Part shown: positions 3,190-31,295 of the stretch, one piece after another
Position numbering within the stretch: the stretch's first letter is position 1
Layout of the letters: each line of letters opens with the position of its first letter
NCBI GenBank assembly: GCA_947303755.1
Contig: CAMYZF010000003.1
Location: 1-41,020 of the forward strand
Origin: an uncultured Erysipelotrichaceae bacterium
GTDB taxonomy: Bacteria; Bacillota_I; Bacilli_A; RFN20; CAG-826
Direction of reading: 5' to 3'
DNA: 41,020 nucleotides
Made by a program: the position numbers and the translations under genes
Notes under the pieces: generated by a model
What the model saw: only the letters and a program-made list of their open reading frames with translations
The model's database searches: none
What the model was told of the DNA's origin: nothing

Positions 3190-3412
3190 ATAAAAACGTC
3201 CCACATAAGGACGCTACTAACGCGGTACCACCTTAATTTATAGTACAAGTACTATACTCTCTATCCTTTTAACGCAAGGTTACGTCTAAATTGGTTTTTA
3301 GAAGCTCAGAAGTGGTATCGAGGATGATCTCTTAGGAATTTTTCAGCTACCATTCCCTCTCTAAAAGAGACCTTTTCTTCGACGTGTCTTCGTCGACGCT
3401 AAAATTAGTATA
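3190..3412 (-). promoter_or_regulatory. T-box riboswitch (Thr, specifier ACC) for thrS
   Basis: Minus strand AAGGTGGTACCGCG T-box core; specifier ACC at 3314-3316 in GATACCACTTCTGAGC; terminator GCGTCC-loop-GGACGTTTTT; promoter TTGATT-16-TATACT (3429-3434/3407-3412). Confidence 0.93.
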
Positions 3413-5750: not shown

Positions 5751-6674
5751 ATGACTCTTCAAGAAGTAAATGACTTTTCAATTAAAGACATTGTTAATGA
5801 AGAAGTGGACATGAAGTCCTATATCAACAAGCTCGTCAAAGAACTTCGTGATGATATCGAAGTTTATGAAAGACTTAAGAGCTTTAATTTAACAATGGGC
5901 GAAGTCAAAGAAAATATCGGCAAATTAACCGATTATCGTGAAGATTACAATTATTGTAAAGCCTGTCCAGGAATCGCGAAATGCGCTAAAAAGACCCCAC
6001 ACATTTCAATGTATGTTGTAAAAGAAGGTAATTTTATCGCGGTGAAGTATGAACCATGCCATAAAATCATGGAGCAAATTAAGATCGATTCTAGATACTT
6101 GCTAGCAGACTTCCCTGATGAATGGAAATCTGTTTCATTCTCCACGGTTGATAGAAGTATCAATCGTAGACCAGCCATTAAGAAAATCGTCGAAATCATC
6201 AAAGATGATTCTTCTAGTTGGGTATTCATTAAGGGTAATCACAAAGTTGGCAAATCCTTCTTCTTAGTAGCTGCCGCAAATGAATTTATCGCTCAAACAA
6301 ATCAACAAGTTGCAGTTATCAATGCCCGTAAACGTTTTAAAGAATTATCTGATTTAAGTATTTCTAATCCAACTGAGTTCTCTAAGAACGTTGTTGCCTT
6401 ATCTAATGTTGGTTTATTAGTTATTGATGATTTTGGCGATGAATACAAAAACGAATACATTCGTGATCAAATCTTAATGCCAATTCTTCTAGAAAGAGAA
6501 CATCAAAATAAAACCACTTTCTTCTCTTCCAACTATTCTATTAAAGAAATTCAACAACTTTATAGTGTTGGAAAAAACGGTGGTGAAATTAGGGCTAAAC
6601 AACTCGCCAATGTTTTAGAAGAGATGTGCGGCAAAGAATTTGATTTTACCGGAGCGTCTATCTACAAAAAGTAG
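5751..6674 (+). CDS. dnaI: Primosomal helicase loader DnaI
   Basis: N-terminal CxxC...C zinc motif, Walker A GNHKVGKS, Walker B LLVIDDFG; adjacent to dnaB. Confidence 0.93.
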   Translation: MTLQEVNDFSIKDIVNEEVDMKSYINKLVKELRDDIEVYERLKSFNLTMGEVKENIGKLTDYREDYNYCKACPGIAKCAKKTPHISMYVVKEGNFIAVKYEPCHKIMEQIKIDSRYLLADFPDEWKSVSFSTVDRSINRRPAIKKIVEIIKDDSSSWVFIKGNHKVGKSFFLVAAANEFIAQTNQQVAVINARKRFKELSDLSISNPTEFSKNVVALSNVGLLVIDDFGDEYKNEYIRDQILMPILLEREHQNKTTFFSSNYSIKEIQQLYSVGKNGGEIRAKQLANVLEEMCGKEFDFTGASIYKK

Positions 6675-8031
6675 ATTTAATATTTTCCTCTAAAGAAGCA
6701 ACTCCATCGTTATTAACGATCACATGGGTTGCTTTTTTCTTGTTCTCTAGATCGTAATCCTTATTAATAAGTAATGTTTCGTTATAGTTTTTATCACGTT
6801 TTTCTAAACGTTTCTTTCTATTTTCTAAAGAAGAATCGACATAAATTATTTTGTCAGCGAAATCATCTAAGTGAGATTCAAATAGAAGTGGAACTTCCAT
6901 CGCTACTTTCGTTTTTGCTTTTTTAATTCTATTTATAATGACATCACTAACAAGGGGGTGAACATATTTTTCTAAACGTCTCTTTTTATTAGGGTTATTT
7001 AAAAGATACTTTCTTAAATAATCTCTATCGATATCTCCGTTTTTGATAACTAATTCAGGAACAATCTTTCTAATGCCGTCTTGAATTTTTTTATCTTTAT
7101 ATAGTTCGTGAGTGATTACATCGGCATCTAAACATTCATATCCAAGTTTTTCAAAAACATTTAAAACAGCGGATTTGCCTGATCCAATTGGGCCAGTAAT
7201 TGCGATAACTTCTTGGATGGTAGGATTTCTTTGACATTTTGGGCAATATGTTGTGCCGCGACCGCCCACAAAAATCTTGCGTAGATGATGGCCACATCTT
7301 ACACAGGTTCCATCTTTCTTTCCATAGACTTTAAGAGAGACCTGGAAATTACCAGAAACACCTTCTTTTGGATGATAGGATTTAATGGTGCTTCCACCTT
7401 GTTCAATAGCCTTTGTTAAGATTTCTCTTGAGGCTTCAAGGATATGGCTACAATCACAAAGATTTACGGTTTTTGCAGGGGTTTCTGGATGAATTCGACA
7501 TTCAAAAAGCACCTCATCTACATAGATATTCCCTAGTCCTGACATGATGCTTTGGTCCAATAAAGCAGTCTTAATGGGAATAGATTTATTCTTAAAGTGA
7601 TCGAGTAAATATTTAGGATCCTTTAACTTAAATGGATCAGGACCAACTTTTGAAAGTGGTTCTTCTTCCATATATTTGTCCTCTGAACTTACTTTTAAAA
7701 TACCGAATTTACGGACGTCGTTATAGACAAGTGATGTTTTATCGCTAAAAGTTAATGACGCGATATCATGTTTTTGATATTTTTCATCTTTATTTCTTAA
7801 GAAATATTTACCTTCCATTCTTAGATGTGAGATAAGAATCTTTTTATTTGAGAAATGGAAGATGATGAATTTGCCGATTTGTTCAAAGCTTTCGATTTTG
7901 CAATTAATTAAATCATTTAGATTTCCTTCGACATTTTTCGCTCTTAAAACATCTACACTAGTGACAGTTTTTCCAAGTGTGAACTCTTTTAGCGTTTCAA
8001 TAACGGTATGTACTTCTGGAAATTCAGGCAT
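6658..8031 (-). CDS. MutM (Fpg) - CoaE (dephospho-CoA kinase) fusion protein
   Basis: MPEFPEVHTVIETL and zinc finger CVRCG...CPKC, continuing in frame into VIAITGPIGSGKSAV P-loop kinase. Confidence 0.93.
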   Translation of the reverse strand: MPEFPEVHTVIETLKEFTLGKTVTSVDVLRAKNVEGNLNDLINCKIESFEQIGKFIIFHFSNKKILISHLRMEGKYFLRNKDEKYQKHDIASLTFSDKTSLVYNDVRKFGILKVSSEDKYMEEEPLSKVGPDPFKLKDPKYLLDHFKNKSIPIKTALLDQSIMSGLGNIYVDEVLFECRIHPETPAKTVNLCDCSHILEASREILTKAIEQGGSTIKSYHPKEGVSGNFQVSLKVYGKKDGTCVRCGHHLRKIFVGGRGTTYCPKCQRNPTIQEVIAITGPIGSGKSAVLNVFEKLGYECLDADVITHELYKDKKIQDGIRKIVPELVIKNGDIDRDYLRKYLLNNPNKKRRLEKYVHPLVSDVIINRIKKAKTKVAMEVPLLFESHLDDFADKIIYVDSSLENRKKRLEKRDKNYNETLLINKDYDLENKKKATHVIVNNDGVASLEENIKSTFCR

Positions 8032-27123: not shown

Positions 27124-27552
27124 ATGTTTTTCGGGTCGTTTGAACATACTTTAGACGAAAAGAACCGCCTTTTAATTCCTTCTCGTTTACGAGGCGAACT
27201 TGGTTCAAAAGTTTTTATCATGAAAGGATATGAGGGATCTTTATCTCTTTATCCAGAGAATCAATTTTCTAAATACATCGAAAAACTCGAACATTTACCA
27301 TACGAATCTAAACTCTCACGTGATATTGAAAGAATTTCGCTTAGTAGCGTTTTTGAGATCGATGTTGACAAAGTCAATCGTATCCAAATCCCAACCGCTT
27401 TGATCAATAAATACAGCATCTCCAAAGAAGTTGTGGTAGTTGGTGTTATCAATCACATTGAAATCTGGTCAAAAGCTAAATGGGAAGAATATCTCAAAAC
27501 TAATGAAAAAGAATTTGAAGCGAAATCGGAAGAATTACTTAAAAATGTCTAA
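27124..27552 (+). CDS. mraZ: Transcriptional regulator MraZ
   Basis: MFFGSFEHTLDEKNRLLIPSRLR; start trimmed from GTG 27115, which is inside an MraZ box. Confidence 0.96.
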   Translation: MFFGSFEHTLDEKNRLLIPSRLRGELGSKVFIMKGYEGSLSLYPENQFSKYIEKLEHLPYESKLSRDIERISLSSVFEIDVDKVNRIQIPTALINKYSISKEVVVVGVINHIEIWSKAKWEEYLKTNEKEFEAKSEELLKNV

Positions 27553-28480
27553 ACACGTTTCTGTTTTACTTAACGAATCCATCGATTTGCTAAATATCAA
27601 GGCAGATGGTGTTTATGTTGATTTAACACTTGGTCGTGGTGGACATTCTAAAGAAATCTTACGACGCATTCCATGTGGAAGGCTTTATGCCTTTGATAAA
27701 GACGAAGACGCAATTAAGGAATCGATTGAAAATCTCCGCAACTTCGAAAATAAAACCGTAATCCGTGAAGATTTCCGTAATTTCAAAGAAAGTCTAATCT
27801 CCTTAGGAGTAGACAAAGTCGATGGAATCTTAATGGATTTAGGAGTGTCTTCACCTCAATTCGATGAATCTAATCGAGGATTCTCTTATAAAGAGGAAGC
27901 TCGTCTAGATATGAGAATGGATAAAAGACAATCTTTAGATGCTCATCAGGTTGTTAACACTTATTCACTGAAACAATTAACTGACATTTTCCGTAATTAT
28001 GGAGAAGAAAAATTCGCTTATCCAATCGCTAAACGAATTGTCAAAGAACGCGAAACCCATCCCATTGAGACTACAACTCAATTAGTGGATATTGTTAAAG
28101 CTAGTAAACCTCTAAAAGAATTAGCGAAGAAAGGCCATCCTGCTAAGCAGGTCTTCCAAGCAATTCGTATTGAAGTTAACGACGAATTAGGAGCGTTAGA
28201 AATCGCTTTAAAAGATGCGCTTAAAATGTTAAAAGAAGGTGGTCGATTAGTGGTTATCACCTTCCATTCTTTAGAAGATAGAATCGTTAAAAATATCTTC
28301 AACAATGTGGCAAAAATTGAAGGAAATAGACACTTTGTCTTCGCTCTTCCAAAAGCGGAAGAAGAGCCAAAGTATAGATTAGTTAATAACAAAGTTATTA
28401 CTGCAAGCGAAATTGAACTTGAAAACAATCCTAGAAGTAAGTCCGCAAAACTTAGAGCAATAGAAAGGAGCAGATTATGA
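27545..28480 (+). CDS. rsmH: 16S rRNA (cytosine1402-N4)-methyltransferase
   Basis: MSKHVSVLLNESIDLL, VDLTLGRGGHS, FHSLEDRIVK; start trimmed to ATG 27545. Confidence 0.97.
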   Translation: MSKHVSVLLNESIDLLNIKADGVYVDLTLGRGGHSKEILRRIPCGRLYAFDKDEDAIKESIENLRNFENKTVIREDFRNFKESLISLGVDKVDGILMDLGVSSPQFDESNRGFSYKEEARLDMRMDKRQSLDAHQVVNTYSLKQLTDIFRNYGEEKFAYPIAKRIVKERETHPIETTTQLVDIVKASKPLKELAKKGHPAKQVFQAIRIEVNDELGALEIALKDALKMLKEGGRLVVITFHSLEDRIVKNIFNNVAKIEGNRHFVFALPKAEEEPKYRLVNNKVITASEIELENNPRSKSAKLRAIERSRL

Positions 28481-28638
28481 AAGACAAATTGACAAAGCAT
28501 CATTTGCCCAAGTCATATTTTCTTCGTAAAAAAATCATTATCATCTCGATGATTATTTTAGGTTTGACTGCTTCTATAGCTTTACCAGTTGGAATTACGA
28601 TGTATTACCATAACAACATTGCGCAAACTCAAAGATAG
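28477..28638 (+). CDS. 53-aa single-TM membrane microprotein in the FtsL position
   Basis: ATGA overlap with rsmH, AAAGGAG SD upstream; MKDKLTKHHLPKSYFLRKKIIIISMIILGLTASIALPVGITMYYHNNIAQTQR*; below the ORF-track size cutoff. Confidence 0.75.
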   Translation: MKDKLTKHHLPKSYFLRKKIIIISMIILGLTASIALPVGITMYYHNNIAQTQR

Positions 28639-28666: not shown

Positions 28667-28695
28667 TTGGAATATTACTAAGCGATATATATAAT
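28667..28695 (+). promoter_or_regulatory. Internal promoter for ftsA-ftsZ
   Basis: TTGGAA-17-TATAAT; predicted TSS ~11 nt before the ATG. Confidence 0.7.
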
Positions 28696-28712: not shown

Positions 28713-29924
28713 ATGGAAAAACGTATTGCTGTTATCGAAATCACTAACCTCGAAGTACGCTTAATTATTGGCGATGTCGTTAACGACAAACCAGTAATTT
28801 TATATCAAACATCTCGTCCAATTACTGGACTTATTTCACGTAGTGAAATTATGGATCCAGAAACACTTATTAAAATCATTTCTTCATTAACGAATATCGA
28901 AGACTCTGCTATTAAGATGAGGTTCCATATTACTGATGCAACTGTCATTCTTCCTGCTAGTGGTCTTTCCGTTTTCCAAGGTGATAAAACGACAAATGTT
29001 GTTTCTTCAACTTCGATTATTGAAAAGATCGATATTCAAAACGTTATTTCGTTAGTCAATAAAGATCCTATTCCTGGTGGAAATAAAATTGTTGATATTG
29101 TTCCAGACTTTTTCTTAACCGATACCGGCAGATATAAAGAACCTCCAGTTGGCCAAAAATCAAATTCTTTATCGTTGCGTGCTAAGGTGTACACCTTACC
29201 AGAACGTATCGTGAAGGATTATAAAGACGCTATCGAATTAGCGGGAATTAGACCAAAGAGACTTTTTGTTGCTCCATACGGAATTATTGAACTTGCTAAA
29301 AACACCAACGATATTCCAAAAGATTATTTCTTAGTGGATATGGGTGGCGAAGTTAGTACGATTTCTTTGGTTGGCAATCAATCATTATTTGCTTCTTCTT
29401 GCTTCACACTTGGTGGAGAAGATCTCATCAAGTTTGTCGCTCAAGAAATGCATATTTCATATGATGAAGCTCACGAATTAATCGAATTATACGGAATTAA
29501 CGAAAGAGAATTAGCGTTTAAACCAACAATTGCTAAAGCAATGGTTAATGATGTTGAGGTGAAATACACTCCTGATGATTTAAATCGTTATATTCTCGAT
29601 TTCTTTACAGAATATTATTTCAAACAATTCGATGTCACAATGAAACAAATTACCGAATCCATCAAAGGCAGTAATATTTCAACATTACCAATTGTCTTTA
29701 CTGGTGGTTTCTCATCTTTACATGGTTTTGATAGATTGGCTAAAGAAAAATTTATCAATAATCAATCAATTCATTATTTGGTACCAGACGCTATTGGAGC
29801 AAGACATCCGTCTTTCTCAGCATTAGTTGGGGCACTTCTTGCTTCTAGCAAATATAAAGGATCTCTTTCTGATCAAAAAGCTCGTGTGGCAACGGTGGAA
29901 AGAGAAGAAACAAAACAAGAATAG
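28713..29924 (+). CDS. ftsA: FtsA-like cell division protein (divergent)
   Basis: Actin-like fold motifs (VDMGGEVSTISLV, FTGGFSSLHG), position directly before ftsZ. Confidence 0.85.
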   Translation: MEKRIAVIEITNLEVRLIIGDVVNDKPVILYQTSRPITGLISRSEIMDPETLIKIISSLTNIEDSAIKMRFHITDATVILPASGLSVFQGDKTTNVVSSTSIIEKIDIQNVISLVNKDPIPGGNKIVDIVPDFFLTDTGRYKEPPVGQKSNSLSLRAKVYTLPERIVKDYKDAIELAGIRPKRLFVAPYGIIELAKNTNDIPKDYFLVDMGGEVSTISLVGNQSLFASSCFTLGGEDLIKFVAQEMHISYDEAHELIELYGINERELAFKPTIAKAMVNDVEVKYTPDDLNRYILDFFTEYYFKQFDVTMKQITESIKGSNISTLPIVFTGGFSSLHGFDRLAKEKFINNQSIHYLVPDAIGARHPSFSALVGALLASSKYKGSLSDQKARVATVEREETKQE

Positions 29925-29941: not shown

Positions 29942-31051
29942 ATGTATGAAGAAAATTTAGACAATTACGAAGCAGTAGCTCGTATCGTTGTTATCGGGGT
30001 TGGAGGCGCAGGAAATAACGCTGTCAATAGAATGATTGATGAAAATCTTTCATCAGTTGAATTTTATGTTGCAAACACTGATCGTCAAACCTTATCTCGT
30101 TCCAAAGCTAGAAATCGTCTTGTTTTAGGTGAAGAAATTACTAATGGTTTAGGTTCTGGTGGTGAACCAGATGTTGGACGCGCAGCTGCAGAAGCTAGCG
30201 TAGAACAAATTCGCGATATCGTTAGAGGTGCAAATCTTGTCTTTATCGCAGCAGGTATGGGTGGGGGCACTGGCACAGGTGCTGCACCAGTAGTTGCTCA
30301 AGTTGCGAAGGAAGAAGGTGCTTTAACTGTCGCTATCGTTACTAGACCATTTACCTTCGAAGGTAAGAAAAGAATTGCTAATTCCGTTGAGGGTTTAAAT
30401 AATCTTAAGAGCGCAGTTGACGCCATCATTATCGTTTCAAACGATAAATTACTTATGGCGAACGGCTCACAACCAATCAACGAAGCTTTTGCAGAATCGG
30501 ATCGCGTTTTAGCTCAATCAGTTAGAACAGTAACAGATCTTATTCTTCGTCCAGCTTTTATCAATCTTGATTTTGCCGATGTTAAGAATACTCTTAAAGA
30601 ATCCGGCATCTCCTTGATTGGTTTCGGTATGGGCTCTGGTCCAAACCGCGCTTTAGAAGCTGCTCAAAATGCAATTTCATCTCCGCTTCTTGAAGCGTCA
30701 ATTAACGGTGCACGTCGCGCAATCTGCGCAGTTACATGTGGCCGTGAAGTTTCACTATATGAAGCTCAAGAAACTGTTAACCGCATCATTGAAGCAGCTG
30801 GACAAAATGTCGATATCAAATTTGGGGTCTCAATCAATGACGAATTAACTGATCAAATTCTTGTTTCAGTTATCGCTTCTGATTTCACTGAAGATTTTGA
30901 TTTCACACATATTCCAACATATGATACAAATCCAGTTAAACCTATAGTTTCTCCGGAATTTGCTGATAAAGGTGAAGAATCACCTAATGAGGAAGAAGAG
31001 AGTCAAGACTCCTTTATTCCTTCCTTCTTAGCTAATGAGAATTTAGACTAA
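29942..31051 (+). CDS. ftsZ: Cell division protein FtsZ
   Basis: GVGGAGNNAVNRM, GMGGGTGTGAAPVVA, C-terminal FIPSFLANENLD; SD GGAGG, start trimmed from TTG 29927. Confidence 0.99.
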   Translation: MYEENLDNYEAVARIVVIGVGGAGNNAVNRMIDENLSSVEFYVANTDRQTLSRSKARNRLVLGEEITNGLGSGGEPDVGRAAAEASVEQIRDIVRGANLVFIAAGMGGGTGTGAAPVVAQVAKEEGALTVAIVTRPFTFEGKKRIANSVEGLNNLKSAVDAIIIVSNDKLLMANGSQPINEAFAESDRVLAQSVRTVTDLILRPAFINLDFADVKNTLKESGISLIGFGMGSGPNRALEAAQNAISSPLLEASINGARRAICAVTCGREVSLYEAQETVNRIIEAAGQNVDIKFGVSINDELTDQILVSVIASDFTEDFDFTHIPTYDTNPVKPIVSPEFADKGEESPNEEEESQDSFIPSFLANENLD

Positions 31052-31074
31052 GACAAATTTCATTAATAGACACG

Positions 31075-31275
31075 GTAATTAGATAAATAATCTAGTAGCG
31101 AGTTAACGATGGTGGAAGGTTAACGATTATCCTAATTATTATCACTATTAATTAAGCGAACTGAAAGTAAGTAAGTGAGCCGTAAATCTGCGTTAAAGAT
31201 GTCAAGCGCTATAACTATGTTATAGAATTAAGGTGGTACCGCGCTAATAGCGTCCTTAAATCGGGCGCTTTTTAT
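31075..31275 (+). promoter_or_regulatory. T-box riboswitch (Ile, specifier ATC) for ileS
   Basis: AAGGTGGTACCGCG at 31230-31243; specifier ATC 31141-31143; terminator AGCGTCC-loop-GGGCGCTTTTT. Confidence 0.93.
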
Positions 31276-31295
31276 ATGAAAAAGAGGTAGAAAAA

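Follow-up and report, generated by a model that had tools for sequence, protein, structure and literature searches.

A 53-residue membrane protein encoded in the ftsL position of an apparently wall-less bacterium is almost certainly an FtsL remnant and may serve to dock FtsA and FtsZ

The small protein encoded directly after rsmH in the division gene cluster of the 41,020-nucleotide stretch of DNA analysed here (the window) almost certainly descends from ftsL, as judged from its position and from the homologous proteins of related genomes. Taken jointly, the observations are best explained if this protein, hereafter the stub, is the ftsL product of a lineage without peptidoglycan that was retained to dock FtsA and FtsZ at the membrane, a reading to which we assign a probability of roughly 0.5. 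The genes of the window follow each other in the order mraZ, rsmH, 53-aa ORF, ftsA, ftsZ and then ileS, and the relevant features are the following:

27124..27552, plus strand: mraZ (Pfam PF02381)
27545..28480, plus strand: rsmH, 16S rRNA methyltransferase, MraW (Pfam PF01795, 388 bits)
28464..28470, plus strand: Shine-Dalgarno sequence AAAGGAG, 6 nt 5' of the ATG of the stub gene
28477..28638, plus strand: probable ftsL-remnant ORF, 53 aa, with a predicted cytoplasmic tail (residues 1-19), transmembrane (TM) segment (about 20-43) and outer tail (44-53)
28667..28695, plus strand: promoter-like site TTGGAA-17-TATAAT in the gap between the stub gene and ftsA, 18 nt before the ftsA ATG (consensus scan only)
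28713..29924, plus strand: ftsA, 403 aa (PF14450 and SHS2)
29942..31051, plus strand: ftsZ (PF00091, PF12327)

The full sequence of the stub is MKDKLTKHHLPKSYFLRKKIIIISMIILGLTASIALPVGITMYYHNNIAQTQR. Its ATG overlaps the TGA of rsmH by 4 nt (ATGA), an arrangement that was found again in most members of the genus. Residues 1-19 include seven K/R and a single acidic residue (D), the 19-residue maximum of hydropathy is 2.54 for the segment starting at residue 20, and the outer tail comprises about 10 residues after the TM segment; hydropathy and positive-inside charge thus predict a bitopic protein with N-in/C-out orientation. The preliminary description of a one-TM ORF in the FtsL slot, with a start overlapping the rsmH stop, an AAAGGAG motif, a lysine-rich N-terminus, one hydrophobic segment and a short tail, was therefore confirmed in all these features.

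The start of ftsA has no Shine-Dalgarno sequence upstream, and the AT-rich element 5' of this gene was found again in members of the genus. Together with the TATAAT-type site about 18 nt upstream, this suggests that ftsA and ftsZ may be expressed from a leaderless or short-leader transcript separate from mraZ-rsmH-stub. The C-terminal peptide of the window FtsZ ends in ...DSFIPSFLANENLD.

Loci containing rsmH were obtained for 54 genomes out of 59, the genome of the window being among them. In 47 of these loci, rsmH is followed first by an ORF for a small one-TM protein, which is missing from this place in G005, G011, G013, G019, G024, G030 and G042. Its length ranges from 46 to 56 aa in the window's own genus and is mostly 55-98 aa in the other wall-less members of the family. 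The motif MKDKLxK and a proline at the TM end are common to all but a few copies, K4 and L5 are invariant, and conservation peaks at residues 1-7 (mean majority 0.87) and is lowest in the outer tail (0.20). A profile built from 37 copies matched 233 of the 279 genomes of the order, and rsmH adjoined the stub gene in each of the 30 best matches examined. When a class-wide sample of 395 genomes was searched, only two genomes outside the order gave matches, which were partial (E about 1e-5 to 1e-4) and lacked the MKDKL tail. According to these searches, the stub form is confined to the window's order and is lineage-specific in that sense. In genus g50, the ORF in the place of the stub has 78 aa in G258, and the longer ORF seen at this place in G263 and G265 was rejected as a GC-rich overlapping frame.

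Compared with the two nearest species, the stub has dN/dS ratios of 0.066 and 0.118, which are comparable to those of rsmH and ftsA but approximate, as these pairs are close to saturation at synonymous sites; the closer within-genus pairs L006/L010 and L005/L007 gave 0.065 and 0.077. The contrast between synonymous and nonsynonymous changes relative to the nearest species is significant (Fisher p = 3e-11), and constraint is strongest in the first 18 residues. Neither of the two refuting outcomes named in the preliminary description was thus observed: the ORF recurs between rsmH and ftsA/ftsZ in relatives, some sisters of the same genus having lost it, and the ratios are not near 1. The shortness of the stub, its shrinking tail and the loss of the gene in two clades could indicate a decaying pseudogene or a neutral leftover, but this is very improbable in view of the low dN/dS, the frame kept open behind a strong ribosome-binding site across the genus, and the invariant K4 and L5. 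A functionless chance ORF, as might be suspected from a length below the usual 60-aa ORF cutoff and from the lack of database matches, is refuted by order-wide conservation in one position combined with the low dN/dS, and by this comparative evidence 28477-28638 is a real, selected gene.

Searches of Pfam and NCBIfam returned no family that claims the stub and no FtsL/DivIC match. A match to the malarial ETRAMP family (E 1e-6 to 3e-5, below curated cutoffs) and the other matches to TM families in these databases were attributed to the composition of a lone TM segment.

The origin of the stub was traced through the walled relatives. The walled genome G028 (L202) belongs to the window's own family and contains the cluster yceD-mraZ-rsmH-slot protein-pbpB-murE-mraY-murD-ftsW-murG-murB-divIB-ftsA-ftsZ-...-sepF, in which murE, mraY, murG and murB are names that we presume from reading the ORFs. 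Its slot protein of 86 aa, MKDKLTKNTDTRFD..., is encoded exactly between rsmH and pbpB (class B PBP), opens with the same MKDKLTK as the window stub and has a coiled-coil-like outer segment. The slot proteins of walled members of other families have 72-79 aa and the same anatomy. Throughout the family and the order, the slot proteins of walled genomes combine a stub-like N-terminus, TM position and TM-end proline with FtsL-like outer segments, so that by these characters the genomes form a continuous series from the walled slot proteins to the stub.

Profile comparisons agree with this series. The stub profile aligned to that of the walled slot proteins with a score of 51.7 (E 5e-10), which was reached by none of 100 shuffled controls (≤28.8), in which columns were permuted within the tail, TM and outer segments separately. 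The walled slot proteins aligned in turn to canonical FtsL from Erysipelotrichaceae, Lactococcus and Streptococcus with a score of 38.2 (E 8e-7; controls ≤31.9, 0/100 reaching it). The direct comparison between the stub and canonical FtsL gave 28.7, a value reached by 4 of the 100 shuffled controls and therefore not significant. The stub profile also picks up directly the slot proteins of two walled genomes, G043 and G053, and the DivIC-family model PF04977 weakly matches the slot protein of G047.

Position and the chain of intermediates, not direct resemblance to canonical FtsL, are thus the grounds for descent from ftsL, which we consider very likely. Replacement of ftsL in the slot by a small lineage-specific membrane protein of division, not derived from ftsL, would account for the missing Pfam/NCBIfam match to FtsL/DivIC and for the non-significant direct profile comparison. 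Such a replacement is nevertheless improbable, because walled slot proteins of the same family and order share the N-terminus, the TM position, the TM-end proline and the FtsL-like outer segments, and because the genomes form a continuous series. Of the two readings offered in the preliminary description, the FtsL remnant without its coiled coil is thus the one that held, and the unrelated lineage-specific peptide did not, except that the stub form is restricted to the order.

In walled bacteria, the coiled coil of FtsL pairs with FtsB and activates FtsWI. Like the stub, FtsL is encoded directly after rsmH, as is the G028 orthologue between rsmH and the class B PBP gene, and is an N-in bitopic protein with a short basic cytoplasmic tail, features that are predicted for the stub, whose N-terminal region and TM segment are homologous to the slot proteins of walled relatives. 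Unlike the stub, with its outer tail of only about 10 residues, FtsL has an extracytoplasmic coiled coil of about 40 or more residues; its partners FtsB, FtsQ, FtsW and FtsI are absent here, and the stub has neither a family-model match nor significant direct similarity to canonical FtsL. Since coiled coil, partners and family-model match are all missing, the protein should not be named FtsL without qualification, and the best label is FtsL remnant (ftsL descendant) with a presumed role in division.

The window comes from a gut bacterium that is apparently without a cell wall, having lost it. Of the 35 genomes of the family, 34 gave neither FtsW nor a class B transpeptidase, G028 being the exception, and SepF was not found in the same 34 genomes. 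No wall-less member gave more than a single weak match resembling a Mur ligase, compared to four matches in G028; no FtsQ POTRA domain was found in them, and FtsB/DivIC gave sub-threshold matches only, none of them convincing. FtsZ is present in the genomes of the family, except for a few incomplete assemblies. The window genome (1.01 Mb), from which pbpB is gone, is 84% complete, so its absences alone would carry little weight, yet they are concordant across relatives that are up to 99% complete.

Two other families of the order contain wall-less members, f2 (G035 and G047) and genus g14 of f3 (G036 and G048), in which neither FtsW nor a transpeptidase was found and which retain both DivIB, including a POTRA domain, and a longer protein in the FtsL slot. 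Because these genomes keep both proteins without FtsW or transpeptidase, we conclude from their gene content that FtsL and DivIB persisted beyond the loss of wall synthesis in at least two lineages. The window stub seems to represent this process at a more advanced stage. SepF is also kept by the wall-less G035 (L200) and G047 (L015). Whether walled or not, members of family f3 encode a further small hydrophobic protein of 64-77 aa after the FtsL-slot gene; its positions in three loci, L201 being that of G036, are the following:

L201, 12496-12729, minus-strand coordinates: second small hydrophobic protein
L203, 2345-2575, minus-strand coordinates: second small hydrophobic protein
L044, 3178-3372: second small hydrophobic protein

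By the SHS2 model, family f5 seemed to lack FtsA, but this was an artefact of divergence, ftsA adjoining ftsZ in that family.

The AlphaFold model of the window FtsA (mean pLDDT 89; residues 383-403 below 50) indicates a genuine FtsA, predicted to have the actin fold with the SHS2/1C domain, and the PDB structures that match it best are those of S. aureus FtsA. The usual membrane anchor of FtsA is a C-terminal amphipathic helix, and this helix and SepF are the known membrane tethers of the Z-ring (PMC11987601). No such helix was seen at the C-terminus of the window FtsA, the last 21 residues of which are disordered and hydrophilic. Nearly all FtsA tails that were read in the order, including those of walled members, are likewise devoid of an obvious amphipathic helix, so that loss of the helix did not follow formation of the stub. 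In the walled members, SepF is available as another tether, whereas the wall-less family lacks it. In G008, which belongs to the same genus and also keeps the stub, the C-terminal end of FtsA (L041, 3202-4470) is KKKKSGLKGLFGGK, which could form a short membrane patch of basic and hydrophobic residues.

The MKDKLxK cytoplasmic tail is the most conserved part of the stub although FtsW, the class B PBPs, the Mur pathway, FtsQ and SepF are gone. In E. coli, the tail of FtsL recruits FtsW and is thus a docking element (PMC7733951, PMC8998562); with FtsW gone, the tail would need to have kept or gained another partner. According to the mechanism that we propose, the lineage would have lost peptidoglycan while the ftsL gene stayed in its dcw position, and the extracytoplasmic coiled coil would then have been lost, the cytoplasmic tail and TM helix being kept under purifying selection. 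The remnant would still serve division on the cytoplasmic side. The MKDKLxK tail would bind FtsA, the product of the adjacent gene, possibly via the SHS2/1C domain, and the TM helix would tether the helix-less FtsA, and through it the FtsZ ring, to the membrane, supplying the attachment that is no longer given by the FtsA helix or SepF. By analogy with known docking systems, a stripped FtsL could in this way have become a minimal TM anchor for helix-less FtsA/FtsZ after loss of SepF and of the helix, a Z-ring tether of undescribed kind. We regard this last proposal as tentative and rather doubtful because two clades lost the stub yet keep a helix-less FtsA.

These clades are a monophyletic group inside the genus, consisting of G005, G011, G013 and G019 (L028, L027, L039 and L021, respectively), and a second pair, G024 and G030. 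The FtsA C-terminus was read in G005, G011, G013, G019 and G030 and is helix-less, and no SepF was detected in these five genomes. The stub therefore cannot be the sole anchor everywhere. Nor was the expected covariation seen, in which loss of the stub would coincide with a membrane helix in FtsA, as FtsA of the stub-less clades is equally helix-less. In G019, rsmH and ftsA are separated by a gene that resembles those of asparagine synthetases.

The FtsL remnant might instead be selected for a membrane or division function other than anchoring FtsA. It could, for instance, recruit a further membrane protein that acts late in division, adjust the polymerisation of FtsA, or form a bridge to a lipid/teichoic-acid system. 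The evidence for descent from ftsL applies equally to this explanation, which is further favoured by the clades that do without the stub despite a helix-less FtsA and by the other wall-less families of the order, whose longer FtsL and DivIB, kept without FtsW or PBPs, imply some wall-independent role of FtsL, which need not be anchoring. However, conservation peaks at the extreme cytoplasmic N-terminus, in a gene beside ftsA-ftsZ, and no further membrane partner is apparent in the operon. We consider another function a serious alternative, at less than even odds.

Precedents for docking of FtsA by the stub tail can be found in other systems. PilN is a one-TM protein with a large outer domain, and its short N-terminal cytoplasmic peptide docks PilM. 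As proposed for the stub and FtsA, an N-terminal peptide thereby docks a protein of the FtsA fold which itself lacks a membrane helix; unlike the stub, PilN has the large outer domain, and the analogy claims no sequence relation. The structural neighbours of the window FtsA include PilM-PilN1-12 (PDB 2ych, 5eou) and FtsA-FtsN1-29 (PDB 7q6i). The cytoplasmic tail of FtsN binds FtsA (PMC7733951), residues 1-29 doing so in the latter structure, and FtsN, like the stub, is bitopic with a short basic tail. In contrast to the stub, FtsN is a protein of walled proteobacteria and cannot trigger wall synthesis without its outer domain, and homology is not claimed. SepF and the FtsA amphipathic helix have the same role as that proposed for the stub but are absent or unrecognisable here, where the stub has a TM helix instead.

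FtsL and its partners are regarded as regulators of septal wall synthesis. They have been described as conserved among peptidoglycan-containing bacteria (PMC7733951), and in the literature searched for FtsL in wall-less Mollicutes we found no report of such a remnant. A selected FtsL remnant without wall synthases indicates a function of tail and TM helix that survives loss of the wall, and suggests that FtsL has a second job for which no wall is needed. Since the order spans walled members and two kinds of wall-less members, those with the stub and those with DivIB and a longer FtsL, a role of FtsL beyond activation of FtsWI can be tested by comparison. The stub also bears on how the Z-ring is attached to the membrane in wall-less cells.

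Three further elements were noticed in the window. A 457-aa ORF on the minus strand (6658-8031) fuses formamidopyrimidine-DNA glycosylase (MutM/Fpg) to dephospho-CoA kinase (CoaE), which are normally encoded by separate genes. A T-box-like stretch below the Rfam threshold precedes ileS (about 31060-31290), and a T-box leader lies 5' of the threonyl-tRNA synthetase gene (3204-3405, minus strand).
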